Of a stretch of 21,738 nt of DNA, positions 2,255 to 21,493 are shown piece after piece. The stretch is from the IMG/VR virus record IMGVR_UViG_3300035698_018208, positions 1 to 21,738 of that record; one strand, 5' to 3'. The stretch's first letter is position 1; every line of letters begins with the position of its first letter. The notes under the pieces are model-generated. The model saw only the letters and a list, made by a program, of their open reading frames with translations, was not told the origin of the DNA and ran no database searches. The DNA comes from a virus. The translations under genes and the position numbers were made by a program.

Positions 2255-4498
2255 ATGGATTATAAGGATTTCATCAAAAACAAAAAGAGGATAGACCCAT
2301 ATACCGGATTACCTGAAATACCAAAACTTAATACAATGTTATTTGATTTTCAACATGATATTGTAGCATGGGCGTTAAAAAGAGGAAGAGCATGTATATT
2401 TGCTGATTGTGGATTAGGAAAGAGTCCAATGCAATTAGAATGGGCGAAACATATACCCGGAGATGTATTAATAGCAGCACCATTAGCGGTTGCGCAACAA
2501 ACGATAAGAGAAAGCGAAAAATTTAATATTGGAGAAACTATTGGTTATTCAAGAACAGGAGAAAAAAAGGGGAAAATAACTATAACTAATTATGAAATGC
2601 TTGATAATTTTAATCCAGACGATTTCAAAGGAATCATTCTGGATGAAAGTTCTATTTTAAAATCTTATACTGGAAAATTTAGAAACATGATAATAGATAC
2701 TTTTAAAACAGTTCCTTTTAGACTTGCATGCACAGCAACACCAGCTCCTAATGACTTTATGGAATTAGGAAACCATGCTGAATTTATGGGAGTTATGAGC
2801 AGAACTGAAATGTTATCAATGTTTTTTGTTCATGATGGAGGGGAAACTCAAAAATGGAGAATTAAAGGACACGCTGAGGATACTTTTTGGAAATGGGTAT
2901 GTTCATGGGCGGTTATGATAAGAAAACCATCAGACTTAGGTTATCCAGATAATGATTTTTTATTGCCTAAATTAAATTTAAAAGAAGATGTTTGTATGGT
3001 ATCAGAAGATCAAAGTGAAGAAGGATTGCTTTTTAGACTTCCTGCTTCAACTCTTGCAGAAAGAATAGTCGAAAGACGTTTGACAGTTGGCATAAGATGT
3101 GAAAAAGCAGCGAAAAAAGCAAATGAATCAGATGAAACGTGGCTTTTGTGGTGCAATAGAAATGATGAAAGCAGTTTGTTGCATAGATTAATTCCCGGTT
3201 CTGTTGAAGTGAACGGAAGCATGAAACTTGAACAAAAAGAAAAAGCCATGCAAGATTTTTCAACCGGTAAAATTAGAGTAATGATAACTAAGCCATCAAT
3301 AGCTGGTTTTGGGATGAATTGGCAACACTGTTTTAATATGGCTTTTGTTGGTCTATCTGATAGTTATGAACAATTTTATCAAGCGGTTAGAAGATGTTGG
3401 AGATTTGGACAGAAAAAAGAAGTTAATGCACACATAATAACAGCAAATACAGAGGGAGCCGTTGTTCAGAATATAAAGAGAAAAGAAAAGGATTCAATAA
3501 TTATGGCTGAAAAAATGGTTAAAAATATGAAAGTTTATAATTCAGAAAATGTAAAAGGTTTGAGTCGTGAAAATGCGGAATATAAAAGAGATGTCGAAAC
3601 AGGAGAAGCGTGGGAACTCCATCTTGCTGATTGTGTTGAGTTGGCTTCTGAAATAAAAGACAATAGTATAGGTTATACTATATTTTCTCCACCATTTGCT
3701 TCACTTTACACTTATTCAAACAGTGATAGAGATATGGGAAACTCTCAATCGAATGAGGAATTTATGCAGCACTTTAACTTTTTAGTTAAAGATATGTATA
3801 GAATAACTGCACTCGGCAGATTATTAAGTTTCCATTGCATGAATTTACCAACATCGAAAAGTCATCATGGATATATTGGAATCAGAGATTTTAGAGGTCA
3901 TTTAATAAAAATGTTTGAAGATGCTGGTTGGATTTATCATTCTGAAGTTTGTATATGGAAAAATCCAGTCGTTGCTATGCAAAGAACTAAAGCACTTGGA
4001 TTGCTCCATCGTCAAGTTGTGAAAGATTCTGCTATGAGTCGTCAAGGTATCCCTGATTATTTAGTGACAATGAGAAAACCTGGAGAAAATGAAAACCCAG
4101 TAGCCGGTCGATTAGAATATTTTTGTGGAGATCAAAACACATTTCAGCAAACAAAGGATATGTCTATTGATGTTTGGCAAAGATATGCGTCACCAGTATG
4201 GATGGACATAAATCCTAGTAGAACTCTTCAACATAGATCAGCAAGAGAAGAAAAAGACGAACGTCATATTTGTCCACTTCAGTTAGATGTTATTGAAAGA
4301 GCCATGCAGTTATGGTCCAAAAAAGGTGATAAAGTTTTCAGTCCGTTTGCAGGAATAGGTTCTGAAGGTTATGTTGCTTTGAAAATGGGGAGAACTTTTA
4401 TTGGTTCAGAATTAAAAGACTCATATTTTGAACAAGCAAAAAAGAATCTTCAAGCCGCATGGAATGAAACACACGAACTAACTTTATTTGATATGTAA
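2255..4498 (+). CDS. SNF2-like helicase fused to a DNA methyltransferase
   Basis: This 747-aa protein joins two enzymes. Residues 25-430 form a superfamily-2 (SNF2-like) ATPase: Walker A ADCGLGKS (50-57), Walker B DESS (130-133), motif III TATP (160-163) and motif VI QAVRRCWRFGQ (376-386). Residues 450-735 form an N4/N6 amino-methyltransferase of the N6_N4_Mtase type. The catalytic SPPF (478-481) precedes the SAM-binding FSPFAGIGSE (695-704), the permuted order of beta-class enzymes; SPPF is more typical of N4-cytosine than N6-adenine enzymes. Its likely role is remodelling or unwinding phage DNA while methylating it, for replication or protection from restriction. AGAGGGG precedes the ATG. 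It is first in an operon with dnaN and rtcB. Confidence 0.9.
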   Translation: MDYKDFIKNKKRIDPYTGLPEIPKLNTMLFDFQHDIVAWALKRGRACIFADCGLGKSPMQLEWAKHIPGDVLIAAPLAVAQQTIRESEKFNIGETIGYSRTGEKKGKITITNYEMLDNFNPDDFKGIILDESSILKSYTGKFRNMIIDTFKTVPFRLACTATPAPNDFMELGNHAEFMGVMSRTEMLSMFFVHDGGETQKWRIKGHAEDTFWKWVCSWAVMIRKPSDLGYPDNDFLLPKLNLKEDVCMVSEDQSEEGLLFRLPASTLAERIVERRLTVGIRCEKAAKKANESDETWLLWCNRNDESSLLHRLIPGSVEVNGSMKLEQKEKAMQDFSTGKIRVMITKPSIAGFGMNWQHCFNMAFVGLSDSYEQFYQAVRRCWRFGQKKEVNAHIITANTEGAVVQNIKRKEKDSIIMAEKMVKNMKVYNSENVKGLSRENAEYKRDVETGEAWELHLADCVELASEIKDNSIGYTIFSPPFASLYTYSNSDRDMGNSQSNEEFMQHFNFLVKDMYRITALGRLLSFHCMNLPTSKSHHGYIGIRDFRGHLIKMFEDAGWIYHSEVCIWKNPVVAMQRTKALGLLHRQVVKDSAMSRQGIPDYLVTMRKPGENENPVAGRLEYFCGDQNTFQQTKDMSIDVWQRYASPVWMDINPSRTLQHRSAREEKDERHICPLQLDVIERAMQLWSKKGDKVFSPFAGIGSEGYVALKMGRTFIGSELKDSYFEQAKKNLQAAWNETHELTLFDM

Positions 4499-4514: not shown

Positions 4515-5612
4515 ATGAAATTCACAATTAAAACATCAGAATTTTTAAAGGAAATTAAAACATGTAAGAACATAATGGGAGGTTCTTCTATATCTCCCAT
4601 ACTTACTAACATTCTCATCGAAGCAAAAGAAACAGGAGAATTAACATTAACATCAACTGACTTGGAACTCTACTACCAAGGCACTATAAAGGCAGACGTT
4701 GAAGAAAAAGGAATCATAACAATTCCAGGTGCTAATTTGCTAGAAATAATTTCAACATTTTCAAGTGACGAGCGACTGATAATAGAAGTGGAAGAGGGAC
4801 TATTCTATATCAAGACGGACAAAGCCGAATATAAACTATTCGCCAATGATCCCGCTGATTATCCGTCACTGCCAGACAAGACAGAAGACCCGAAGATAAT
4901 AAAGATTAAAACTGAATTGTTTCAGACAATCATCAACAAAACCATTTACGCAGTATCAACTGATGATGCTAAGAGGGAACTCCAAGGCTTACTCTTCAAC
5001 TCAGACGGTACTAATCTTTCCATCTGTGGAACTGATGGCAGACGATTAGGAATAGTTAATATTGAACTTGAAGGCATAGAATCATTTGAAAATGTTATCA
5101 TTCCTGCCAAAGTTCTAAGAGAAGTAGCAAAGATTGATAGTGAAGAATTAACTATTAAGATCTCAAAAACTGACATAACATTTGAAACGGAAAACAAATC
5201 ATTCCTTTCAAGATTGATAGAAGGGAAGTATCCGGCTTATAAAAATGTTATTCCAGATTCTAAAATGGCAAATATTGAGATTAATAAAATCGAATTATTC
5301 AAGAACTTAAAAGGTATCATGCCAATAGCGAAAGAAATAGCTTTTACTGTTAAATTTGCATTTACTCAGGAAGAATTAACATTGTCAGCATTATCCTCAC
5401 GAGTTGGCAGAGGAAGCCGTAAGATGGCGATAAAGAATGATGGTGGAGATTTCGCCATCTCTTATAACTCAAGATACATGTTAGACTGTATTAACTCGAT
5501 TGATAGCGACGTGGTGATATTTGAACCGATGTCAGCGGTGAAAGCAACTAGGATAACATCGACAGAAGATGAAACACATATTAATATAATAATGCCGGTT
5601 AGAACGGCTTAG
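4515..5612 (+). CDS. dnaN: DNA polymerase III beta subunit (sliding clamp)
   Basis: This 365-aa protein is a full-length bacterial-type beta clamp, which encircles DNA as a dimer and tethers the polymerase. The N-terminus carries the familiar SISPILTNILIEA and LTLTSTDLEL segments of domain 1, the domain 1 end reads FANDPADYPSLP, the middle has LQGLLFN and GTDGRRL, and the C-terminus ends in the characteristic IIMPVRTA, the strand that forms part of the partner-binding pocket. It lies 16 bases after the helicase-methyltransferase gene behind an AAAGG site and is followed 15 bases later by rtcB. A phage clamp next to a helicase suggests a phage-encoded replisome, with other parts probably outside this window. 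Confidence 0.95.
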   Translation: MKFTIKTSEFLKEIKTCKNIMGGSSISPILTNILIEAKETGELTLTSTDLELYYQGTIKADVEEKGIITIPGANLLEIISTFSSDERLIIEVEEGLFYIKTDKAEYKLFANDPADYPSLPDKTEDPKIIKIKTELFQTIINKTIYAVSTDDAKRELQGLLFNSDGTNLSICGTDGRRLGIVNIELEGIESFENVIIPAKVLREVAKIDSEELTIKISKTDITFETENKSFLSRLIEGKYPAYKNVIPDSKMANIEINKIELFKNLKGIMPIAKEIAFTVKFAFTQEELTLSALSSRVGRGSRKMAIKNDGGDFAISYNSRYMLDCINSIDSDVVIFEPMSAVKATRITSTEDETHINIIMPVRTA

Positions 5613-5627
5613 GAGGAAAGAAAAGTC

Positions 5628-6845
5628 ATGGAAATTAGAAAATTATTTGTAGCAGAAGAAAAGGAACTTCATATCTTTGACAAGGGGAATGAATTAATAG
5701 AACAAAAAACAATCGATCAAGCTATGGAAACTTTGAGCCTTGAGGGGGTTAGAGGTTTGGCTTTAATGCCTGACGCTCATGTTGGAATGGGTGCGTGTAT
5801 AGGTTCTGTTATCTATACAAAAGATATTGTAATTCCCGCCGCTGTTGGTTCAGATATAGGTTGCGGTGTGTTGGCAGTTAAACTTGATTTACAAAAACAC
5901 GAGATACCCGCAGAAAAATATCAAGATATTTATGCAAAAATAAAAAACTCAATTCCTACGGGTTTCTTGGCTAAGAAAAATAAGCAACCAAACAAAGATA
6001 ATGCGGGTGTTGATATATGGAAAAGAACTCCGCAAAGAATAAGAGATGTTTGGGCTGAAGAATTAGAAGATAAATATAAAAAGATATGTGGCAAAAATGC
6101 TAAAATAAAAAACGGATATGCACTTGAACAATTAGGAACTCTTGGTGGTGGCAATCACTTTATTGAATTGTGTCTTGATCAATCCGATATTTTTTGGATT
6201 CTAATTCATTCTGGGAGCCGTGGAGCTGGTTCTAAAATAGGATCATTCTTTACTAAAAAAGCAAAGAAAATGCCATGGAATAAAAATCTAGTTAATAAAG
6301 ATTTATCTTTTTTATACATTGACTCTGAAGAAGGCAGAGGTTATTTAAGCGCAGCAAGATGGGCGCAAAAATATGCAGAATTAAACAGGAAATTAATTGC
6401 GGAAAACGTTTTAAAGTGTTTAGGTTTCAACGTTGAAAGTGATATTGAGTTTGAAACTATTTCTTGTCACCACAACTTTATTGAGCAATATTCAAAAGGA
6501 TGGTTGACGAGAAAGGGGGCTATTTCAGCAAGAGAAAACCAATTAGGATTAATCCCTGGTTCAATGGGCGATACTTCTTATATAGTTAAAGGATTAGGCA
6601 ATATAAAATCTTTCCATTCCAGTTCTCACGGTGCTGGTCGTTTAATGAGTAGAACCCAAGCGAAAAACGAAATATCTACAGAATGCCATGAGAATTCTTT
6701 GAGCGGTATAGTTTGCGATAATTCGGTAACAACTCTTGACGAAACACCAACTGCTTACAAAGATATAGACAGGGTAATGGAAGCACAGAAAGAATTGACA
6801 ATGCCTATTAATTCTTTAACTCAAGTTTTGTGCGTGAAAGGGTAA
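5628..6845 (+). CDS. rtcB: RtcB-type RNA-splicing ligase
   Basis: This 405-aa protein is a complete RtcB, the GTP- and Mn-dependent ligase that joins RNA 3'-phosphate (or 2',3'-cyclic phosphate) ends to 5'-hydroxyl ends. Visible family motifs are PDAHVGMG (residues 48-55), VGSDIGCG (73-80, metal-binding Asp76 and Cys79), GGGNHFIEL (173-181), HSGSRGAG (194-201), SCHHNF (279-284) and HGAGR (334-338). His334 matches the family position that becomes guanylylated. The length is like that of the E. coli enzyme. AGGAGG overlaps the dnaN stop codon. The ends it joins are those left by many anticodon nucleases, so tRNA repair during infection is a reasonable inference, helped by the tRNA-like gene immediately downstream. 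Confidence 0.95.
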   Translation: MEIRKLFVAEEKELHIFDKGNELIEQKTIDQAMETLSLEGVRGLALMPDAHVGMGACIGSVIYTKDIVIPAAVGSDIGCGVLAVKLDLQKHEIPAEKYQDIYAKIKNSIPTGFLAKKNKQPNKDNAGVDIWKRTPQRIRDVWAEELEDKYKKICGKNAKIKNGYALEQLGTLGGGNHFIELCLDQSDIFWILIHSGSRGAGSKIGSFFTKKAKKMPWNKNLVNKDLSFLYIDSEEGRGYLSAARWAQKYAELNRKLIAENVLKCLGFNVESDIEFETISCHHNFIEQYSKGWLTRKGAISARENQLGLIPGSMGDTSYIVKGLGNIKSFHSSSHGAGRLMSRTQAKNEISTECHENSLSGIVCDNSVTTLDETPTAYKDIDRVMEAQKELTMPINSLTQVLCVKG

Positions 6846-9538: not shown

Positions 9539-12500
9539 TTACTCCCCTGAAATATCTATAAAATAATTGTCCCCATCAACCGCACTTGTTCCCATGCGTT
9601 GATTGAATTGAACGTCGATAAAAAATGGCATAGTCTGAATTAATTCCATACTCAATTCAGGCTGAACCGTAAAACTAACTTCACTTGTATTCTGAACACT
9701 CGCGTTCCCTTGCAAATTCTGCCCGTAAACTGTTGTTCCTGTATAGGTAGGATAATTAGGATGTCGCCCACTTGCTGGCATAAGTCCCACTTCTACAACT
9801 GTCCCAAATGGCAAATCATTTCTAGGAGTTATTCTGTAATTAGCGTTTGATAATTTTATCACGCTTATTGGAATCTTATTATTTCCTGAATATTTCATAT
9901 AGAAAAAATTACTTACATTTTCCTTGAACCACTTTACATCACGAGGATTACCACTGCTAGGATAAGTCGAAGAATTCATGTCATGCGATAATACAACGTC
10001 AAAACTAACGCCCTGATATGGAATAACATTGCCATTTTTCAAACTCGGTTTTATACTGCTTATCAAAATAAGATTTGCAAATGGTCTTGTTCCCGTTGGG
10101 ATCTGTTCACTTGTTCCGTCTGGACCTGTATCATCAAGTTGATCTTCCCAATCTTCTCCAGTTTCATCATCTGGTGGAAGTAACTCTTCAAACTCCGTGT
10201 TAGTGAAGGATGGTCTAATTATTTCAATTATTACATAAGAGCCAGCTGCACTCTGAACAATTGCCACTCTGTCATCCGCTGCTACATTCTTAACTCTTGA
10301 AATAACGTATTTGACTTCTTCGCCTGAATCGAGTTTTATTCTATACATTCCACGATATTTTTGCGCTTGAACTGTTCCGAATTGAAATTGCTGCAGTTCC
10401 GGTGCTATTTGTTTTATCATGTCTGAAAGATTAAATGATACGTCGGGAGCATAAGGTTCAACCGTTGTTTCATTCACTTTTACTCTTCTTGCAAGAATCA
10501 GAGTCGCCCTATTTTGTTCGCCGGAAGGTTCAACGTTTTGAATATAATAATAAGTATCGTATGAAGTTTCTGCTTGTTGTGAAAATATCCTAAGCAATTG
10601 TCCTGCTTGCATTTCTGCTGTTCCTGGAAGTAATACTTCTGATACAACATAAGGCTGACTTGCTGCTGTAACCATTCTTTTTAATTTCTCTTGCGCTTGG
10701 TCACTTGAAGAAACGAAACCTGAAAGAACTGCTCCACCATTTATTGTCGCTGGTTCTTTCCCTTTGGCTGTTCTGTCATTAACCGAACTTTCGGCCGTGT
10801 AATCTATATTTATATTCTGGTAGTCTTCCCATGTTCCGGCGTTAATGAATTTTCTTCCCCATATTGAGAACTTAATAGCGATTGTGTCACCTAAATTAAT
10901 TTTACTCTTGAATTTAAAAGCCACTTTGTCCGCTCTTCTTACCGGAGAATTAGGTTGATGCGATTTAATACCATATAAGTATTCTGAGCCATTAAGTAAA
11001 GCATTATCCTCAGTGATAATTTCAGCATTAATTAAATGAACTTCTGATCCTGTGAATTGATCAGCATTCTCTATATCTAAAACCATTGTCTGAATAACTG
11101 CATCATCCACATCTGCTTCAAGATAATATTCATACGAAATGCCATCAGTATTTTCATCATACCTCGCATAAAATACGCCTTCCTCTAAATCATTAGGACC
11201 TTCTTCTGCTCCGTCTGTAGGAGTCCAAGATTGTTCAATGGTTGCCAATAACTGAGGTTCACTTAGTTTAATGTCGAACTGAGTCAATATCTGTTCAAAG
11301 TTGGCAGCCGTTACGCCGCCCGTTAATGTGATAGTATCCGCTGTATTAGAATCACCAATATAGACTCCATCATTATCAATAACTACCCATTGATAGAAGA
11401 TAACAACGCCATTAAGTAAATGGTTCTGTCTGAGGTCATAATAAGCCGTTGCCATTCTTTTATCTGCATGGATGTCTAAATCTATAGGATATTTTAAAAG
11501 ACTTCCACCTGTATTGTTTTCGCCTGTTGTTGAAGTATTATTAAACCAGATTGTTAATCTAGCTTTTTTTATATTATCCCAATCAAGTTCAGTTGCTTCT
11601 CCATTATCAAGAGTTTTTGATCCTACATTTCCCCAACACCCAAAGAATAAAACATCATCAGGAGTGAATGCTGTTCGTTCTTGTTGAAATAAATCACTCT
11701 TGAAGAATGAACTTTCCTGCTCTGTTTCTTCTGATTTATCTGGAATATTATCTTCTGAATCATAATTAATATTTAAGTCATCTTCGAGCGGTTCATATGC
11801 CAATCTTAAACGATTATAAATGAAACTTGAATCTGATGTTTCGCTTAATTCCTGAATGTGTTCGTCCTGAAATGTAAACGATACAAATTTATTCGCATAA
11901 CTTGGTAAGATAATAATGTAGTCATCTTGATAGAATAAATTCCATGACTCAATAAACATTATCTTTTGCATTATGTCTTCAAATGGTTTTGCGTTCGCTG
12001 TTGTTCTTGGTCCAACATATTTATTCCCTTGTGGGATGAATATTTTATCAGCGTCGAAACCTGCACCGACACAAATTCTGTTTAATATATCGCCATTATG
12101 TGAGCCATCAAGAGAAAGATACTTAGGGGAATACCTTGGCAGAGAATCATTAGTCGATTGTGCAGTTATTTCTTGGTATCTGTTTCCATCATTCCCGAAG
12201 AATCTTCTAATTTTAATGACAGGTGTTATATATTCTTTGCTCACTAACCCATCATTGACTGTATAAGTTATAGTATCGTCATCAGTTAGTAATGGAGCAT
12301 CAATCCCCATCATTGTAAATGTCATCTGAATGATTCCATCATCCCTATTAATATCTAGTGCAGGATCAGAAATAAGATATTGTGTAATATCTTCAGCATT
12401 TCTCAAAATAGTTTTAGTCCTGTATTTTCTTAAATCTCTATGAATCTTTGTGATGGTATGAGTAACCTCAGAAGAATATTCAGTGGAGAAATTCTTTGCT

Positions 12501-12751
12501 CTGAACTTGAATTCATTTGCTCCCTCTTTGACGATGGCAGGATAAAAGAATCGACCATTAATTAAATAACAGTCATCAGGTAAATCAATCCATGCTGCAT
12601 CTTCATATACCTCAATAAAATCCTCTTTATTACGATAACCGTATATAAAAGAAGTTTCTTTAATAGTTGTTGTGTCATACAAAACAAGAGTTGGTGTTGC
12701 TATAACTATATTATTTTCAGGGTTTGAAATTCCCGAATATTGAATAGTCAT
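9539..12751 (-). CDS. Tail-tip hub protein with Ig-like domains
   Basis: This 1070-aa protein is the largest tail-tip component. Residues 1-105 look like an Ig/FN3-type beta domain (EGANEFKFRAKNFSTEYSSE). Residues 110-350 have the character of a baseplate-hub or tail-associated (Tal/gpD-like) domain, with DITQYL, MTFTMMGIDAPL and YNRLRLAYEP. The middle is beta-rich. From about residue 890 there is an SbsA-type (Big_5) Ig-like domain: PSLKNGNVIPYQGVSFDVVL then SHDMNSST. A second copy begins near 1035 (FNQRM) and stops after about 36 residues, so it looks cut short. The ATG shares one base with the upstream stop (TAATG), behind GGAAG. It probably forms the tail tip that contacts the host; the hub assignment rests on weak motifs plus gene order. 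Confidence 0.75.
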   Translation of the reverse strand: MTIQYSGISNPENNIVIATPTLVLYDTTTIKETSFIYGYRNKEDFIEVYEDAAWIDLPDDCYLINGRFFYPAIVKEGANEFKFRAKNFSTEYSSEVTHTITKIHRDLRKYRTKTILRNAEDITQYLISDPALDINRDDGIIQMTFTMMGIDAPLLTDDDTITYTVNDGLVSKEYITPVIKIRRFFGNDGNRYQEITAQSTNDSLPRYSPKYLSLDGSHNGDILNRICVGAGFDADKIFIPQGNKYVGPRTTANAKPFEDIMQKIMFIESWNLFYQDDYIIILPSYANKFVSFTFQDEHIQELSETSDSSFIYNRLRLAYEPLEDDLNINYDSEDNIPDKSEETEQESSFFKSDLFQQERTAFTPDDVLFFGCWGNVGSKTLDNGEATELDWDNIKKARLTIWFNNTSTTGENNTGGSLLKYPIDLDIHADKRMATAYYDLRQNHLLNGVVIFYQWVVIDNDGVYIGDSNTADTITLTGGVTAANFEQILTQFDIKLSEPQLLATIEQSWTPTDGAEEGPNDLEEGVFYARYDENTDGISYEYYLEADVDDAVIQTMVLDIENADQFTGSEVHLINAEIITEDNALLNGSEYLYGIKSHQPNSPVRRADKVAFKFKSKINLGDTIAIKFSIWGRKFINAGTWEDYQNINIDYTAESSVNDRTAKGKEPATINGGAVLSGFVSSSDQAQEKLKRMVTAASQPYVVSEVLLPGTAEMQAGQLLRIFSQQAETSYDTYYYIQNVEPSGEQNRATLILARRVKVNETTVEPYAPDVSFNLSDMIKQIAPELQQFQFGTVQAQKYRGMYRIKLDSGEEVKYVISRVKNVAADDRVAIVQSAAGSYVIIEIIRPSFTNTEFEELLPPDDETGEDWEDQLDDTGPDGTSEQIPTGTRPFANLILISSIKPSLKNGNVIPYQGVSFDVVLSHDMNSSTYPSSGNPRDVKWFKENVSNFFYMKYSGNNKIPISVIKLSNANYRITPRNDLPFGTVVEVGLMPASGRHPNYPTYTGTTVYGQNLQGNASVQNTSEVSFTVQPELSMELIQTMPFFIDVQFNQRMGTSAVDGDNYFIDISGE

Positions 12752-14526
12752 TAAATCTTCCCACTATCAATTTGAGTATCAACCGATTCAATAGTTACCG
12801 CTTGATCAACTGTGGTCGAAAGACCTGAAACAACATAAGTATCAACAAAATCTGTTATATAAGCCACTGAGTTCACAAGGTCTGTTGTTCTATTGACTCT
12901 CGCATACTTGGCTGTTATATTAGCTGTTGTTGGTGCTCCTGCGCCGAAGTAATCATCAACATCTGCTCCCGTAGTTAAACTATCATTATTTAATGTTACA
13001 ACTCCATCTTCTTCAGCGTGAACCTGCCATATTCTTTGGATTCCTACATCTTGAACGATAACAATGTCATCTGTTAAGATAGTTGAATTATAATAATAAC
13101 CTGTCGCTGTTGTAGCACCTGCATAACTGCCATTAGTTAATTGTGCATAATCAACAAGATAAACATTGTAACCACCACTCGGAGAAGTCCCCGACATTGT
13201 AGCACCGCCCATTTCATCATAGAGATGTCGATTGAGTTCAAGTGCAGCAATTACCGTTCCCGTTGCTGTGATGTTTTTATAATTTATTTCCATGTCAGTT
13301 CCTGAAAGAATTGAACTTAATATTTCAGCCTGTCCTGGATAACATGTAACCCATGCCGAAGCATCTGCATTAGATTCATTTGCGCTCGCTGCTGTGTCAA
13401 GAGTAGTAAGGGAAAAATACCAAGTTGAACCATCAAAAAAAGCATTGCTTGCTTTGAAATTATAATCAAGTGATCCATCCGTTTGAACTGAATAATCCGA
13501 ATCAGTTGTCAAAATGTTCTTTAGCAAATCACCACGCTCTGTATTACTTGTAACGGCTGAAGAATAATAAAGATTATAAGAGCCAATTTCATTTGCTGTT
13601 AATGCTTTGGTTGATTCAATATCTCCAATTGCCATTGACGGATATTCAAGAAATGTTCCACTTTGATAAAGCCATACTTCCGACCCTGAAGCGAAAGAAC
13701 CGCTTAAAGTTGTATTGATCGTCACCGTTGAAGTTGTTACAATGGTTGCTGTATAATAAGTTGAAAACTCGTTGCCGAGTGCAAAATTAGAATTAACCGC
13801 TATTCCTTGAGAAGCCGGGTCAGAATCCATAGGGATAATAACTCCGCCTTGAACAACGTTTCCCTCAACCGTTAAAGTTGTGTAATCAACATGATAAGAA
13901 AGATTATCGTTATCAATTATTCCAGTTATAAAATTTAAATCTTCCCATTCGGCGATTTCAACGCTTGAAACTGACCATCCAAGTTCCTCGGTTCCGAATT
14001 GAGCCGTCACTGAAATCGGGTCGCCATCTTGAGCATTCACTCTTAATTGTCTTGAGCCTGATGGACATTCTTCTATTTTTTCAATTAGTTTTAATTCTGC
14101 ACCTGAAGCCACAATATCATTCAACAATCCATATTCAATAGTCAAAACATTTGAAGTGATAGAATTAACAATGTATCTTATTCCGTCTGCCCCTATATAA
14201 ACTCTGTCGGCTGCTATTACGCTTGTCGTAGCCGTTGCCTCCATTGTAAACGTGGTATCATTTGTAGAATAAGTGCCAGAAAGGGAACCAAATAAAGTGC
14301 CGCTATCATATACATCATCAGTTAATGCGTCGGTTGTTGTTAAATCTCTTGTTGTTGGTGCGAACCAATTAAAGTTAATCCTTGCTAATTCATCAGGTTT
14401 CCCCGTTGTAGTCAATCCCCATTCGTCAATCTGGAAAGTAGTTGTTTGTGTTGGTGCCGCCGTTTCCGATGTTAGATTTGTATTTGCAGGGTCGGAAAAC
14501 CCTGATCTTTTTACTTCGCCCGCCAT
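12751..14526 (-). CDS. Beta-rich structural tail protein, 591 aa
   Basis: No named family is recognised. The protein is rich in Thr, Ser, Gly and Asn, with few Lys and Cys, as is typical of virion fibre and tail-tip proteins. Around residues 106-137 it has a beta module, RVYIGADGIRYIV then LTIEYGLLND, that also appears twice in the neighbouring 459-aa protein. A related segment may occur near residue 490 (DIVIVQDVGIQRIWQV). The start ATG directly abuts the upstream TAA, and AGGT from the last codons of that gene acts as ribosome site. Its place between the tape measure and the hub gene fits a tail-tip or side-fibre component. Confidence 0.7.
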   Translation of the reverse strand: MAGEVKRSGFSDPANTNLTSETAAPTQTTTFQIDEWGLTTTGKPDELARINFNWFAPTTRDLTTTDALTDDVYDSGTLFGSLSGTYSTNDTTFTMEATATTSVIAADRVYIGADGIRYIVNSITSNVLTIEYGLLNDIVASGAELKLIEKIEECPSGSRQLRVNAQDGDPISVTAQFGTEELGWSVSSVEIAEWEDLNFITGIIDNDNLSYHVDYTTLTVEGNVVQGGVIIPMDSDPASQGIAVNSNFALGNEFSTYYTATIVTTSTVTINTTLSGSFASGSEVWLYQSGTFLEYPSMAIGDIESTKALTANEIGSYNLYYSSAVTSNTERGDLLKNILTTDSDYSVQTDGSLDYNFKASNAFFDGSTWYFSLTTLDTAASANESNADASAWVTCYPGQAEILSSILSGTDMEINYKNITATGTVIAALELNRHLYDEMGGATMSGTSPSGGYNVYLVDYAQLTNGSYAGATTATGYYYNSTILTDDIVIVQDVGIQRIWQVHAEEDGVVTLNNDSLTTGADVDDYFGAGAPTTANITAKYARVNRTTDLVNSVAYITDFVDTYVVSGLSTTVDQAVTIESVDTQIDSGKI

Positions 14527-15906
14527 TTATTTACCTGCTTTCCAACCTGGTTGAGAAGGTTGCTCAAATTCTGGACCGTCTGAAACGCTCTGAATACCGA
14601 AAACATCTGTTACGCCCGTCATAAGAACTTGGAAAGTTCCTGAAGGTGTGAGAGTTCCGGCATGATGTAATCTAAATTTATTGTCGCCTAAATCTTCAAC
14701 CGTTACCTGTGGAGAACATCTGTGAATGAAATAAGTGTAATCTGTGCTGGTCGCCGCTGATTCGTTTAAATATAATCTTATTACTAATTTTTGTAATCCT
14801 GTGCCATTATTAATAACAGCCGGTAAAATAACTCTTGAACGATGCCGCCAGAGCGTGCTTTTAATATCTTGTGGCGGCATATAAAGAGCGTAAACATTAT
14901 CATTCTCGAATACGTCTGACATTAAACCGCCTTCGATAACAAGACTCGTAAGACTTGAACCAGAAGCCACTTGATAACTAATTCCTCTTATCTGAACCCA
15001 TGCACCCTCTACTAGTGTTTCAGTTCCTGACATTATCGGAATAGTATCATTGTGAGTATTCATTGGATGTGTATGTGATGTGATGTCATGATGATGGTCA
15101 AAGTTGACTCCGCTTGTAAGTCCTGTTCCACCACCTGAAGTATAAGCGAAATCGTGGCTGTGGTCGGTAGATTGATCAGTTGAAGAAAAAGTGCCACGTT
15201 CTGCTGTTGTATTGCTTGTATATTCATATGCTCCGCCTGTAGCGACCTTCGCTATTTCCCAAATAGGAATTGACCCTCTGACTGTGGCGTTTGCTCCATT
15301 TACTTCTTGAATAATAAAATCATTGTCATAAAATTCAAACTGAACTTTATGACCTGCTGCAAGTGTGCCAGAAAAAGTAAAGGTTCTATTGTCCGCTCTG
15401 AGATCGGTTGTAAGAGTTGAAACAGCTGCAGTCGCATATGTGGAAACCGCTGATTCACTCACGTATCCCATAGCAAATGTTTCGGAGTATTCTCTATTGA
15501 TTGTTCCCGAAGTTTGAACTAAACAGGTTAAATCATCAACATCAAATCTATCCGCTGTAATATCAAGAACTAAGTCCAGTGAATTCTGAGAGATAACATT
15601 AGAAATATAAACATCTGTCAATTCAGGTGCGTCGTCAAGTAAGCCGTGATCTAATTCAATGTAATTGAAACTGATACCATTTTTTTTTCTTGTGCCTGCT
15701 GCTATTACTCTATAAGCTTCTGTGCCGTCAATTCCTAATACTACAGACTTATCGAGTTTCTCGTCACCAATATATGATGTGAAAGAATCCTTAACATAAA
15801 TTATAGTATCATCTTCCTCTGCAATTTTTATTAAGGATGTTACAGCCGCAGCAGGTTGCCAGTCAAAATTAAGTATGTCTAATTGTATTGTTTCTTCGTT
15901 TGCCAT
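14527..15906 (-). CDS. Tail fibre-like structural protein with HxH cluster, 459 aa
   Basis: This beta-rich Thr/Ser/Gly protein carries two copies of the module shared with the 591-aa protein: VVLGIDGTEAYRV to IELDHGLLDD (residues 55-92) and WVQIRGISYQV to VIEGGLMSD (303-331). Between them is a His-rich stretch (249-285): HSH, HHH, HTH and further His in a Gly/Thr/Ser background. HxH repeats of this kind in T4-type fibre tips bind metal along a trimer axis, so a metal-braced fibre segment is plausible. The start at 15906 has no strong ribosome site; the 21-base gap to the upstream gene is A/T-rich. It may be a receptor-binding or upper tail-tip protein; the exact role is unknown. Confidence 0.7.
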   Translation of the reverse strand: MANEETIQLDILNFDWQPAAAVTSLIKIAEEDDTIIYVKDSFTSYIGDEKLDKSVVLGIDGTEAYRVIAAGTRKKNGISFNYIELDHGLLDDAPELTDVYISNVISQNSLDLVLDITADRFDVDDLTCLVQTSGTINREYSETFAMGYVSESAVSTYATAAVSTLTTDLRADNRTFTFSGTLAAGHKVQFEFYDNDFIIQEVNGANATVRGSIPIWEIAKVATGGAYEYTSNTTAERGTFSSTDQSTDHSHDFAYTSGGGTGLTSGVNFDHHHDITSHTHPMNTHNDTIPIMSGTETLVEGAWVQIRGISYQVASGSSLTSLVIEGGLMSDVFENDNVYALYMPPQDIKSTLWRHRSRVILPAVINNGTGLQKLVIRLYLNESAATSTDYTYFIHRCSPQVTVEDLGDNKFRLHHAGTLTPSGTFQVLMTGVTDVFGIQSVSDGPEFEQPSQPGWKAGK

Positions 15907-15927
15907 AATTATTTTATACCATATTTT

Positions 15928-16305
15928 CTAAACTTCTGATACTGAAAACGTATAATTTCTTTGCTCCCATAGTGAAGCGTCATTAGGAAATTTTAAATCT
16001 TGTGTTACATAAACTTGATATTCGTTCCCTTGAGCATCACGAAAATATATATTTCCTGCAGTTTCAAGTTCCACTTGAATAAGTTCTATTTGTTCTTTGT
16101 CATTATCTTCGCCTTGAATAGTGAAAGATTTCTTACGCATTATTTTAGTAGTATCACCAGATTTCGGGATATAAGAACTTTGCAGAGTTCCGTTAATGCT
16201 TCTTGTGGTAGTTTGTAATAATTCCGGATCGTTATCAACGACGGTTGGATTTGTTACAAATTCATAAGTTCCTATTTTTACTTGCGCAAATGTATAAGCA
16301 GCCAT
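15928..16305 (-). CDS. Small tail protein, possibly Dit-like, 125 aa
   Basis: This 125-aa protein is all-beta in character with no membrane segment. It starts by the TAATG overlap with the tape measure stop. Features include YEFVTNPTVVDND near the start, a KKSFTIQGEDNDKEQIELIQ stretch, and a C-terminal half reading AGNIYFRDAQGNEYQVYVTQ. Position directly after the tape measure gene is where the distal tail protein (Dit) or another tail-tip ring protein is normally found. It is shorter than most Dit proteins, so only the core ring domain would be present. The assignment rests on gene order and beta content. Confidence 0.6.
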   Translation of the reverse strand: MAAYTFAQVKIGTYEFVTNPTVVDNDPELLQTTTRSINGTLQSSYIPKSGDTTKIMRKKSFTIQGEDNDKEQIELIQVELETAGNIYFRDAQGNEYQVYVTQDLKFPNDASLWEQRNYTFSVSEV

Positions 16306-19300
16306 TATCTAACTGTCACCCCATTTTTCTGCATGTATTGTTGAGCAGCCTGAGCAAATGTGATGCCAGCCTGTCTGTTTTCTGATGGTGTCCCTGTTCC
16401 ATTAACGTTGACATTAAATTTCATTTCGTTCTTGGTGCTGTTAGAAGTGTTTTGATTAACATTTCTATTTTCAGTAATCGCGGAATCGTTAATAATACCT
16501 GTTGACCCCATTCCACCAGATACCCCTTCTCTTGAACCTCCGGGATTCCCCAATGTTGAAAGTGCCGATAAACTACCATTCAATTGGGAAAAAATAGGTT
16601 GAACCGCAGGAACAACGCCTTTTAATGTAGAAACAAAATTTTCAGACCATGCAAGTGCTACATTTTGACCACCGATGTCGATATTTTTTAAAGGTCCCTC
16701 GTCCGGTGGAGAATGTCCATCTATGATTGCCGCTATGTCGGAGGTTACATCCGAAATTTGTCTATATCCCTGCTTCATACCATCAGCGAATTTTGTAGCA
16801 TAACTTAAACCAACCGCTTGTCCGCCTTTTGCAAATTCTTCACTGAAGGCTTGTGTTTCTTCAAACTGAGTTTTCATGCTCGCTATGTGTTGATTGTAAG
16901 CATCTACTGAGTCTCCTTGCATACTTGCAATACTCGCTTTATACGCAGCTATATCTGAGTCTGCCGACGTTGCGAAGTTATTCATTGACTCAGTAGATGC
17001 ACCCCAAGAAGCCGTGGTTTTTGTTTTGAACTCTTCTGATGTTTGTGCTAATGCTTTTATAGCTATATCGGTTGTAGTCATTGACGTCGGAACCTTAACA
17101 CCTAAATTTTCTTCGGCAGACTCTCCAAATAAATCAAGCCTATTTGCAGCGCCTTCCATTGCTTTCGATGTCATCGGTGCCATTTGCTTAAACATAACTT
17201 GAATTCCCAAAAATGCTACTCTAATAGGTAATACAATTTTTTTTAATCCGGCTTTTACTTCTACTTCAGCTTTTGAAAAAATTTCTCTAATACTCGGCCC
17301 AACTACTTTGTCAACGGCTGCCACCCATTCTTTTATTTTTTGCGGTGTTTCTTTTATTAAATAATCCCACGCATCAATAAAATGCTCTTTTGCTTTATCT
17401 TTAAATATTCCAAACGCCGCATCCCAATCATTATCATTGAGTGCCGTTCTTATTGGTGTAGATAAATCAGTGAAATGTGTAGCTATAAATGGACCAATCT
17501 GAGATAATCCACTTTCGAGAGTTTTCTTAGCATCACCCATTATATATGTTTTAGCATCCTGAAAAGTTTTCTTTAATCCGCCAACTATATCAATTTCAAA
17601 ACCAGAGTTTTTAGATAATGTTATAAAATTTTGAGCAATTTTCAAAACACCTGAAGCAACGGAACCAGCAATATTTCCTATTGATGAAATCATTTCGTAG
17701 AATTGTTTTCCTATGCCAACCGCTGTATTAAATGCAGATTCAAGATTGCCTGTATTAGTTACCCATTCAAGAAATGAAGAAAGATAAGTTGCAAGCGTTG
17801 CACCAACTGATTTGAGTATTGAATTAAATGAACTTGAAGCCGTTAATGCCGTGCTTGCACCGTCAACCCATTTTGACCACGATTCCGTTGACATTGTCAT
17901 GTAACCACCAAAAGCCTGTAGAACTTCGAGAACAGGATCAATGGCAGGTTTAAAAAGATTGAATATTTCAACCACTTCTTTTGATGCTGCTGTTATCAAA
18001 TTTGTTGCACCTTCAAGTAACCCTGATTCAGCTATAAAATTTTTAAAAGCGTTAGTCGCTAAGATTGCTTCATCGACTATTAATTTAAACCCTTGTTGTG
18101 CTGTATCACCGATTGAAATATTTAAAGATTCAACTGAACCTTCTAAACTAATCATGCTTTTAGAAAGATTATCAACTTGAATTTCAAACATCTTTGCACC
18201 TGTGCCTGCCGAATCTTTCAACGCTGTTTCTAATTCTCTGATAGATGCTGACCCCTGTTTTATGGCTGCCCCCAATTGAGGTCCCGCTCTGATACCAAAT
18301 GCGGAAATTGCATCAGCGGAATTAATTCCTGCATTTTCTAATTTTTCTAATATGTCAATAAAATTATTTGTTTCAGGATTAAGTTCCTCAAACTTGCCTG
18401 TCATTGTATTTAGTTTGAAACCCAAATCAGAAAACATCGCATTTATTTTAGCAGTTGGACTTGCCAATTTTAAAAGAATCTGATTTAATCCGGTTCCTGC
18501 TCTTGAACCTTTGAACCCAGCATCCGCCAATTTACCGAGAACAGCGGCACCAGTTTCTAAACTCTGATTCATAGCGTCTAAAGTTGGAGCAACGAACGAC
18601 ATACCCATGCCGAGCCCCTCCATTGAAGTCGCTGTTTTGGTGGTAGTAGTTAAAAGAATATCTAAAGTTTTAGCAGTATTTTCAAAACCTAATCCCATTG
18701 CGTTAGTAATACTAATAACTGTTTCTGAAACTGCTGCTAAATCTGAACCTGAAGCAAGCGCAGCATTTACAGATGGAGCAAGAGAAGCAATTGCTTCCTC
18801 TGCACTCAAGCCCGCTTTTGCAAAGTTCAACATTGCCTCCGCCGCTGTGGTCGCAGCAAGTGGTGTATCTCTACCAACTGCAAGAGCCGCTTCTCTTATC
18901 TTATTTATATCTTCGGCTGTTGATAATGATACTGCTTGAATGTTTGATATTTGAACTTGAAAATCCGCACTGGTTGTGACAGCACCCTGAAAAGCATTTA
19001 TTACGCCTTGAACAGCATTCCCGATAGGAGCTAATGCTGACATTAATCCCTGAATAGATAAACTTAGATTTGCAAAGAATTGCAAGCCAGATTGAACAGC
19101 ACTAAACAAACTTGAAAAAGCACCCATTGCAACACTTACAACACCTTTTAAAATATTGAAAGCAGCCGATAAAAGATTCAAAGGATTGAGAATTGAAACA
19201 ACAAAACCAACAACGTTTTTCAATCCTTCAAAAGCCATAAAGACTAAATTGACCGCCGATTGCAAAGCCGTTAAAGGATTCAATAACCCGACAACATTAG

Positions 19301-19511
19301 AAGTAATTTTTTTTAAGAATCCTAATAATCCAGCTTCTTGTGCTATAAAACGTCCGAATTCATCACGAGGTTTTGCAGCCGCTTCTCCAAGACTTGTCAT
19401 GGCAGATACAGCTTTTGCTGCACCTGCCACGATTCCTTTGAATGCGTTTCCTACTGCTTTTGCTCCTTCTATTGCCGCTCTTGCGTCTATTCCTATTTTG
19501 AGATTTGCCAT
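16305..19511 (-). CDS. Tape measure protein
   Basis: This 1068-aa protein sets tail length and is ejected with the DNA. Residues 41-60 include KPRDEFGRFIAQEAG, and 70-175 hold several hydrophobic helices. Residues about 180-370 match the TP901/PhageMin_Tail core (QISNIQAVSLSTAEDINKIR, NFAKAGLSAEEA, TGLNQILLKLASP). The C-terminal part contains the familiar GHSPPDEGPLKNIDIGG segment. At about 0.15 nm per helical residue the length suggests a tail near 160 nm. The start at 19511 shares a base with the stop of the frameshifted T frame (TAATG); AAGGAG lies 11 bases upstream. It follows the chaperone genes, the standard order in siphoviruses. Confidence 0.95.
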   Translation of the reverse strand: MANLKIGIDARAAIEGAKAVGNAFKGIVAGAAKAVSAMTSLGEAAAKPRDEFGRFIAQEAGLLGFLKKITSNVVGLLNPLTALQSAVNLVFMAFEGLKNVVGFVVSILNPLNLLSAAFNILKGVVSVAMGAFSSLFSAVQSGLQFFANLSLSIQGLMSALAPIGNAVQGVINAFQGAVTTSADFQVQISNIQAVSLSTAEDINKIREAALAVGRDTPLAATTAAEAMLNFAKAGLSAEEAIASLAPSVNAALASGSDLAAVSETVISITNAMGLGFENTAKTLDILLTTTTKTATSMEGLGMGMSFVAPTLDAMNQSLETGAAVLGKLADAGFKGSRAGTGLNQILLKLASPTAKINAMFSDLGFKLNTMTGKFEELNPETNNFIDILEKLENAGINSADAISAFGIRAGPQLGAAIKQGSASIRELETALKDSAGTGAKMFEIQVDNLSKSMISLEGSVESLNISIGDTAQQGFKLIVDEAILATNAFKNFIAESGLLEGATNLITAASKEVVEIFNLFKPAIDPVLEVLQAFGGYMTMSTESWSKWVDGASTALTASSSFNSILKSVGATLATYLSSFLEWVTNTGNLESAFNTAVGIGKQFYEMISSIGNIAGSVASGVLKIAQNFITLSKNSGFEIDIVGGLKKTFQDAKTYIMGDAKKTLESGLSQIGPFIATHFTDLSTPIRTALNDNDWDAAFGIFKDKAKEHFIDAWDYLIKETPQKIKEWVAAVDKVVGPSIREIFSKAEVEVKAGLKKIVLPIRVAFLGIQVMFKQMAPMTSKAMEGAANRLDLFGESAEENLGVKVPTSMTTTDIAIKALAQTSEEFKTKTTASWGASTESMNNFATSADSDIAAYKASIASMQGDSVDAYNQHIASMKTQFEETQAFSEEFAKGGQAVGLSYATKFADGMKQGYRQISDVTSDIAAIIDGHSPPDEGPLKNIDIGGQNVALAWSENFVSTLKGVVPAVQPIFSQLNGSLSALSTLGNPGGSREGVSGGMGSTGIINDSAITENRNVNQNTSNSTKNEMKFNVNVNGTGTPSENRQAGITFAQAAQQYMQKNGVTVR

Positions 19512-20202
19512 TATTTATTTTTCTCCTTTTTTTTAAGGATTTTGAAACGCTCATTATCCAACATCTGAATCAATGTAATAAAATAACGCTTCTGCTCGAT
19601 TGTTATGTTCGTTTTAAAGTTCTGAAAATAAAAATTGTAATGATCAGGCTGAATTGAATTATCTGCCATCCCTCTCAAAATATTGTAGCCATCCCAAATC
19701 CATATTAAATCTAAATATAAATCAGGTGGAATCTTACCTAATGTTTCTGATACGCCGCCCCACTCAATCTGCCAGGTAAGACGGTCTATTAGTTTTTTGA
19801 GTCGTCCTCGATATCGAAAGCAAGAAATTCATCTTTTTCGCCAGCGTTTTGAAGTATCCATTCCATAATATATAATCCCGCTTGTTTATCTTTAAGAATC
19901 ATCATGCAATTTTCTTTTGTGAATTCAAGAGGCTTATCTTTAGGACCCCATTCTACACCTTCCCAACCTTTGATGATTGTTTCGGTCAGCACTTCTGCGA
20001 GTGCGTGTTGCTGTGATGCTGTTTTGATTTTACCCTTGCGGAATCTTTTGGCTAACTGGTTCTGTTTGTCTATCAAAGCGTCTTTGTATTCGTCACTTGA
20101 AGCCATTGACAATTTGAACTTACATGTTTCGTCATAGTCAAACCAGATTCCTTCTTTTACTTTTTTGTCATCTACTGCATTTTCTTTAAATAAATTAGCC
20201 AT
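19511..20202 (-). CDS. Tail assembly chaperone G-T, -1 frameshift product
   Basis: The G gene ends at 19789, but a -1 shift at A AAA AAC (19798-19792) opens 93 further codons that run, without a stop, to a TAA at 19513-19511 that overlaps the tape measure ATG. The resulting fusion is about 230 aa (137 of G plus 93). The extension begins LIDRLTWQIEWGGVSETLGK and has many Trp and aromatic residues (LIWIWDGYNILRGM), then ends in a Lys-rich tail. In lambda-type phages the minor G-T product binds the tape measure and tail tube while G coats the tape measure. The frame has no start of its own and is only reached by frameshifting. Confidence 0.85.
19789..20202 (-). CDS. Tail assembly chaperone G
   Basis: This 137-aa protein (MANLFKENAVDDKKVKEGIW start) sits between the tail tube and tape measure genes, the usual place for the lambda gpG-type chaperone. 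It is charged, with a KFKLSMASSDEYKDAL segment and an acidic end (FDIEDDSKN). ATG at 20202 is chosen over an in-frame TTG six bases earlier because GGAGG lies six bases upstream of the ATG. Its last sense codons contain the slippery heptamer that yields the G-T fusion, so most ribosomes make G and a minority continue. It follows the terminator-like hairpin at 20219-20269. Confidence 0.85.
   Translation of the reverse strand: MANLFKENAVDDKKVKEGIWFDYDETCKFKLSMASSDEYKDALIDKQNQLAKRFRKGKIKTASQQHALAEVLTETIIKGWEGVEWGPKDKPLEFTKENCMMILKDKQAGLYIMEWILQNAGEKDEFLAFDIEDDSKN
19792..19798 (-). promoter_or_regulatory. -1 programmed frameshift site A AAA AAC
   Basis: Read on the - strand in the G frame, the heptamer is A AAA AAC, the X XXY YYZ form, placed one codon before the G stop (TAA at 19791-19789). 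Both tRNAs can re-pair after slipping back one base. The -1 frame then stays open for 93 codons. Confidence 0.85.
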
Positions 20203-20287: not shown

Positions 20288-21493
20288 TTAAGCGTCGAAT
20301 CTATCAATCTGCATTGTATAGCCAACGGTCCCTGAGTCCATGATGAACTGAAGTCCACCCTCGAACATAATATCTTGACCAATTGCGCCCGCTACTAAGT
20401 TAGGGTCTGAAATTTTAGTTTTGTAGAAACTAAAAATATAAATATTTCCAGCACCATCAGTTAATTTGAAATCAAATCTGAAAGCTGTGTTATTTATCAT
20501 ATTGTTATATACAGCGGCAGTAGCAGAAGCCATATAAATACTTATTGTCCCTTTTGTATTAGAACGACCTGCACCAATTCCTACTGCTCCAAGAGTCCCA
20601 ATAGCTTTCTGTTGTCTGAGCCCATTATCTAATTCAATAGATAAACTCATGATTTTATAATCAGGACTTGCACCGTCTACATTAATGCTATCAATATCTG
20701 ATACAGCATTCATAACTTCATTAGTAATTGTGGCAGTTGTTCCTGTTCCAACTGATGCGCTTGTTACTTCGCCTGTTGAACCTAACCCCATGAATTCAAA
20801 TGACCCACCGAGAATTGAACCAGCTTTAAAATCCATTGATAATTTCCCGACTCTGCAACCCTGGAAAGCCTGATACATTCCAATGTCTGACATGTATTTT
20901 TCGAATGTGAAACTTCTCTTAGTTACACCATTCTGAAGCATACCGTCATTGATCATTGTAACGCCAGCGCCTGATGCTTCGGTGCCGATTGTTTCTTCGT
21001 AAATGGCTAATGAATTACTTGTTGGAAGACTTCTTACATGAAATAATCCGTTATTTGCTGCTGATGCGAAACCCGCAACATTAATCCACATACCAGAAGC
21101 GATAGCGCCACCACCCGATGTTATAAAATCAGTTGTTGTGGAAAGAAATTCTGGATAGCCCGATGCACCTGTTGCCGTGCAAGATATATCTGTAGATGTA
21201 GCAATAGAAACTGAACTGGTCCAAAGACCGAATAAAGCTGCTTGTAATATGTCATCATGTGATCCGTAGGAAACTTCATAGTTTGCTGGACCTGCAACTG
21301 AAGCGTCAACCTTAACCAAATCCGGAACCTGTCTATCTGATCTTAATTCTACTGATTCTGTGAAGTCAATTGCATAGTTAATTCCTTCGCCTGTTGTTCT
21401 AAACTCTGTCATTTTTGAACTTGTCGGTGTTGTTCCGAAAGTTGCTTCTTCAACGTAATAAAGTTGAAATAAACTTGTGTCTGAGAAACTCAT
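20288..21493 (-). CDS. Major tail tube protein
   Basis: This 401-aa protein fits the Phage_tube_2 type of tail tube protein, which stacks in rings to make the tail tube. The N-terminus reads YYVEEATFGTTP, then TGEGINYAIDFTESVELRSD and the ANYEVSYGSHDDILQAALFG stretch. Residues about 105-185 look like an inserted beta domain (GMWINVAGFASAANNGLFHV), which may be surface-exposed; the C-terminal third resumes the tube fold (SIELDNGLRQQKAIGTLGAV and LVAGAIGQDIMFEGGLQFI). The ATG at 21493 has GGGTG about eight bases upstream and AAGG further out. A hairpin-T-run follows the gene, consistent with it being the most expressed tail gene. Confidence 0.9.
   Translation of the reverse strand: MSFSDTSLFQLYYVEEATFGTTPTSSKMTEFRTTGEGINYAIDFTESVELRSDRQVPDLVKVDASVAGPANYEVSYGSHDDILQAALFGLWTSSVSIATSTDISCTATGASGYPEFLSTTTDFITSGGGAIASGMWINVAGFASAANNGLFHVRSLPTSNSLAIYEETIGTEASGAGVTMINDGMLQNGVTKRSFTFEKYMSDIGMYQAFQGCRVGKLSMDFKAGSILGGSFEFMGLGSTGEVTSASVGTGTTATITNEVMNAVSDIDSINVDGASPDYKIMSLSIELDNGLRQQKAIGTLGAVGIGAGRSNTKGTISIYMASATAAVYNNMINNTAFRFDFKLTDGAGNIYIFSFYKTKISDPNLVAGAIGQDIMFEGGLQFIMDSGTVGYTMQIDRFDA

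Follow-up and report, generated by a model that had tools for sequence, protein, structure and literature searches.

A G/G-T-type tail assembly chaperone gene with a predicted programmed −1 frameshift in a divergent, AT-rich phage contig

Introduction

Between the tape measure gene and a short upstream gene on the minus strand of the IMG/VR record IMGVR_UViG_3300035698_018208, conventional start-to-stop reading leaves a stretch (19512–19788) with no gene. Does this stretch encode the second half of a tail assembly chaperone, which is reached only by ribosomes that change frame? An earlier note on this DNA (positions 1 to 21,738 of the record, hereafter the window) had proposed so, reading the locus as a lambda-like pair of a G protein and a frameshifted G-T protein. 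We examined this proposal using gene order, homology, the conservation of the slip site in relatives, selection on the −1 frame, RNA folding, and structure prediction.

Results

Layout of the two-frame gene

The G gene, which encodes the zero-frame product of the tail assembly chaperone, occupies positions 19789–20202 on the minus strand (137 aa) and starts from an ATG at 20202 that is preceded by a GGAGG ribosome-binding site. Its final codons are GAC TCA AAA AAC TAA, in which the slippery heptamer A AAA AAC (19792–19798, minus strand) directly abuts the zero-frame stop TAA (19789–19791, minus strand) and is phased as tandem −1 slippage requires. Base 19792 would be re-read upon such slippage, and the T extension can be read only thereafter. 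This −1 frame stays open for 93 codons (19514–19792, minus strand), its translation beginning with LIDRLTWQIEWGG and ending with KKKEKNK, and closes at a TAA (19511–19513, minus strand) that overlaps the tape measure ATG (19509–19511) as TAATG. The heptamer, the 93-codon frame, and the stop–start overlap described in the earlier note were all confirmed in the sequence, and ORF inspection bore out its view of 19512–19788, where no other plausible gene was found and only the ends of short ORFs (126 aa or less) reach the low end. The first 38 codons of T hold no start codon; the earliest start-like codon is a TTG at codon 39, and an ATG lies at codon 42. The T frame closes with an A-rich tail containing an A8 run (19527–19534, minus strand), where a read error or slippage could alter the last T residues.

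Chance is a poor explanation of this layout, since an in-frame X XXY YYZ heptamer occurs at 64 of 6353 codon positions in the window (~1%) and a stop-free run of 93 codons has a probability of ~8e-4 in first-order Markov sequence of the region. A heptamer and an open frame occurring jointly, at the G stop and beside the tape measure gene, are not expected by chance. Scoring T by codon usage gave a weakly positive value (6.9 bits).

Neighboring genes and homology

The two-frame gene sits directly between the genes of its two expected partners, both on the minus strand. The partner expected for T is the tail tube protein (20288–21493), which matched PF18906 Phage_tube_2 (E 8.1e-40) and phrog_290, and that expected for G is the tape measure protein (16305–19511), which matched phrog_1533 (E 6e-47) and PF10145 (E 2.9e-29). 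Downstream of the latter, four genes (125, 459, 591, and 1070 aa; 9539–16305, minus strand) gave no PHROG or Pfam match above noise.

G itself matched phrog_313 (E 8.3e-23) and phrog_8233 (E 8e-9), both of which are tail assembly chaperone families. T alone matched phrog_8233 weakly (E 0.016), while the fused G-T aligned with this family in a single stretch (positions 5–251 of 271, E 4.9e-13), which is a gain of 14 bits over G alone. We further built an HMM from the −1 extensions of relatives (36 distinct sequences, the window excluded) and searched all 588 stop-to-stop frames that the window contains. Only the T frame matched significantly (E 3.5e-6), the next best frame having an E value of 1.4. 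The comparison with T domains of other phages that had been suggested earlier thus showed the extension to be homologous to them. A tblastn search of phages with T alone gave no match, and a Pfam Syd match to T (E 0.012) was disregarded as it fell below the family cut-off.

Conservation of the slip site

When G, T, and the tape measure protein were used as single queries against IMG/VR, no close relative emerged, and the nearest relative found shares at most about 30% amino-acid identity with the window. An alignment-based scan using two peptide patterns provided 44 further loci, nearly all of which combine a heptamer in the zero frame with a −1 T frame. The junction-spanning pattern cannot match, owing to the one-base overlap at the slip, so these hits came essentially from the pattern inside G; we infer that the sampling did not preselect for a conserved heptamer. 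The same arrangement was found in the isolates PaMx25, AMA2, ctUnS216, Loki, W9, PA16c, RcTitan, MAR10, and YuA, and RcSimone-Hastad also keeps both heptamer and T frame. The RefSeq record of YuA lists no T gene, though its −1 T frame is intact. In a phage collection, PaMx25 G-T matched 320 records, 279 of which cover at least 80% of it; among the matches listed, the full-length ones align in two pieces, as two frames predict. The T frames of PaMx25, AMA2, and ctUnS216 matched phrog_3817 ‘tail chaperonin’ with E values of 6e-19 to 7e-37.

After near-identical contigs were merged, 32 distinct relatives (PaMx25, AMA2, and ctUnS216 included) were tallied, and each of them has, close to the end of G, a slippery heptamer in frame, followed by a −1 frame of 90–148 codons. 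Loss of the heptamer, which in close relatives keeping the region would have spoken against the frameshift, was not observed among these 32. The heptamers were GGGAAAC in 13, AAAAAAC in 12, AAAAAAG in 3, GGGAAAA in 2, and GGGAAAT in 1; the remaining relative, L012, was scored with GGGCCCG, yet, like its sister L024, it also has a GGGAAAC located 39 nt ahead of the stop, a position shared by the GGGAAAC of YuA. The heptamer touches the stop in 25 of the 32 (L012 counted here), and in the others the two are separated by 3 nt (5 relatives) or 12 nt (2 relatives). A AAA AAC, which the earlier note had regarded as less usual, is thus one of the two dominant forms; none of the relatives surveyed has the G GGA AAG of lambda. 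One contig (L036) was excluded from the tally, as its T homolog is reached from TTTTTTG located 84 nt upstream of the stop; another (L030) appears broken, and a third (L037) ends before the G stop. Aurca01 (H2) was left out because it is too distant (E 0.5) and has no in-frame X XXY YYZ heptamer.

The tally bears on the possibility that RNA polymerase, instead of the ribosome, slips on the run of six A to produce mixed mRNAs. The slip site of the window is indeed such a run. Six A residues are short for transcriptional slippage, however, and 13 of the 32 relatives have G GGA AAC at this place, where the homopolymer is gone and tandem tRNA re-pairing is kept, making a transcriptional origin exceedingly improbable.

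Alternatively, T might be an independent gene that initiates by itself, which is how annotation frequently presents it (‘tail chaperonin’). Several records do list T as an ORF of its own, and in some relatives the T frame has an early start codon, in a few cases at codon 1 or 2. Initiation at the TTG or ATG of the window would drop the conserved first helix of T, however, and the conservation of T begins at the heptamer itself, with Leu as the first residue. Together with the family-wide conservation of the heptamer position, this leaves independent initiation very unlikely.

Selection on the T frame

Pairs of relatives with 67–77% nucleotide identity were used for estimating selection on the T frame. 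They gave dN of 0.14–0.28 and dS of 1.0–1.9, which correspond to dN/dS of about 0.1–0.2, and third-position changes dominate. Purifying selection acts on T in these relatives, in which alone it was measured; for T of the window, a direct dN/dS is impossible since no close relative was found. Absence of such selection, named earlier as an observation that would contradict the proposal, was accordingly not what we found. These data also concern the idea that an assembly error split one long G-T gene, or that T is a noncoding spacer. As a metagenomic-type fragment of a viral contig (IMG/VR), the window could in principle hold such an error. The identical break position nevertheless recurs in isolate genomes and in dozens of other contigs, and the strong purifying selection on the relatives’ T frames speaks against both an error and a spacer, so that we give this idea almost no credence.

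RNA signals around the slip site

A candidate stimulatory stem-loop was predicted a few bases 3' of the heptamer (19755–19784, minus strand), with z of −0.7 to −1.8 depending on the stretch folded, which is not significant alone. Across the family, the 50 nt downstream of the heptamer folded better than shuffled sequence, with a mean z of −2.0 versus 0.0 in controls, which is consistent with a stimulatory stem-loop at this position. Pairing with the anti-Shine-Dalgarno sequence was stronger upstream of the heptamer than elsewhere in G (in the top tenth for 16 of 33), because of acidic residues. A conserved upstream Shine-Dalgarno-like stimulator is not claimed, as the pairing did not exceed that of synonymously recoded sequences (mean p 0.47). 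In the A AAA AAG contigs L010 and L013–L016, AGGAGG lies ~13 nt upstream, resembling the layout of the dnaX stimulator; these contigs are the best candidates for an upstream stimulator of this kind.

In E. coli, A AAA AAC is reportedly less shift-prone than A AAA AAG (PMC5009743), though the host of the window may differ. Its repeated use in the family suggests that this heptamer suffices for slippage. The stop codon that touches the heptamer in most relatives might itself be part of the signal, slow termination aiding the slippage of the two tRNAs, and the ratio of G to G-T would then be set partly by release-factor competition; we consider such a role doubtful. More simply, the abutting stop may reflect the conserved Leu (CTA/CTG) at the first position of T, which favors AAC followed by TAA or TGA.

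Predicted structure

AlphaFold2, run on alignments that combined the window with its relatives, gave confident models of G and T. The G model had a pLDDT of 87, and T was modeled as four helices with a pLDDT of 93. In a viral library, the best fold neighbors of T include proteins of PBPA162 and MAR10, with probabilities of 0.97–0.99 and all E values >0.1; both phages belong to the homologous set matched by PaMx25 G-T. The F20 tape measure chaperone was also among the neighbors. Fold and sequence searches of the PDB with G and T gave no significant match.

Other genes in the window

Several genes on the plus strand were also assigned. A WbqC-like protein (PF08889, E 1.8e-61) is encoded beside a PIG-L type deacetylase (PF02585, E 3.9e-21) at 787–2156, a sugar-metabolism pair that is unusual on a phage contig. 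A single 747-aa ORF (2255–4498) fuses a helicase C-terminal domain (PF00271) with an N6/N4 DNA methylase (PF01555), and it is followed at 4515–6845 by a DNA polymerase III beta clamp with three Pfam domains and then an RtcB RNA ligase (PF01139, E 1.9e-98).

Discussion

Judging by the order of the genes, the slip site with its open −1 frame, and the homology and conservation observed here, the locus almost certainly encodes a G/G-T tail assembly chaperone with a programmed −1 frameshift in a siphovirus-type tailed phage. The central claim of the earlier note is thereby supported by the homology of T, the conserved arrangement of heptamer, stop, and T frame, and the purifying selection in relatives. 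The majority of ribosomes would terminate at the TAA and release G of 137 aa. A minority would slip back by one base on A AAA AAC, where the Lys and Asn tRNAs would re-pair with AAA AAA, and would continue through the T frame to make G-T of 230 aa. Slippage, with whatever rate or efficiency, and binding of T to the tube protein are presumed here. By analogy with lambda, G may coat the tape measure protein, the T part of the rarer G-T may recruit the tube protein, and both may leave before the tail is completed. This reading recovers a gene half that ordinary annotation missed.

The arrangement resembles lambda G/G-T in its location before the tape measure gene, in −1 slippage near the G end, and in the C-terminal T extension (PMC5009743). 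Lambda slips on G GGA AAG, whereas the window would slip on A AAA AAC with an abutting stop; the two are likened here by their arrangement. A homologous G and a homologous −1 T frame are found in Pseudomonas phage PaMx25 (Nipunavirus; gp18/gp19) and in Yuavirus relatives, and are represented by phrog_313, phrog_8233, and phrog_3817. PaMx25 uses A AAA AAC followed by a stop like the window, but it shares only ~28% identity with the window and its T has 119 codons. Acinetobacter phage vB_AbaS_Loki (gp12/gp13) has T of the same family (T HMM E 2.2e-35), and the last bases, TCAAAAAACTAA, are identical in Loki and the window, with the heptamer abutting the stop in both. AAAAAAC adjacent to the G stop has been published for Loki, whose G-T is annotated as a join (PMC5313236), and this heptamer had already been reported in Loki/IME_AB3. 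Loki differs in that its T has 116 codons as against 93 in the window. Alignment with relatives shows that T of the window has a shorter linker behind its first helix. PaMx25, Loki, RcTitan, and YuA carry a tail completion gene between T and the tape measure gene, which is absent in the window.

Among other phages, the pre-tape measure chaperones of the Caulobacter phiCbK group use AAAAAAC in phiCbK and GGGAAAC in Colossus (PMC3556154), and the CcrSC pre-tape measure chaperone of this group was among the viral fold neighbors of T, with a weak fold match (E 0.72, probability 0.69). Haloarchaeal viruses likewise have AAAAAAC in HCTV-2 and GGGAAAC in HCTV-1 (PMC5009743). The window is a distant, ordinary member of a chaperone family found in many known phages, and it extends this family to a divergent, AT-rich phage in which a shortened T is joined directly to the tape measure gene.
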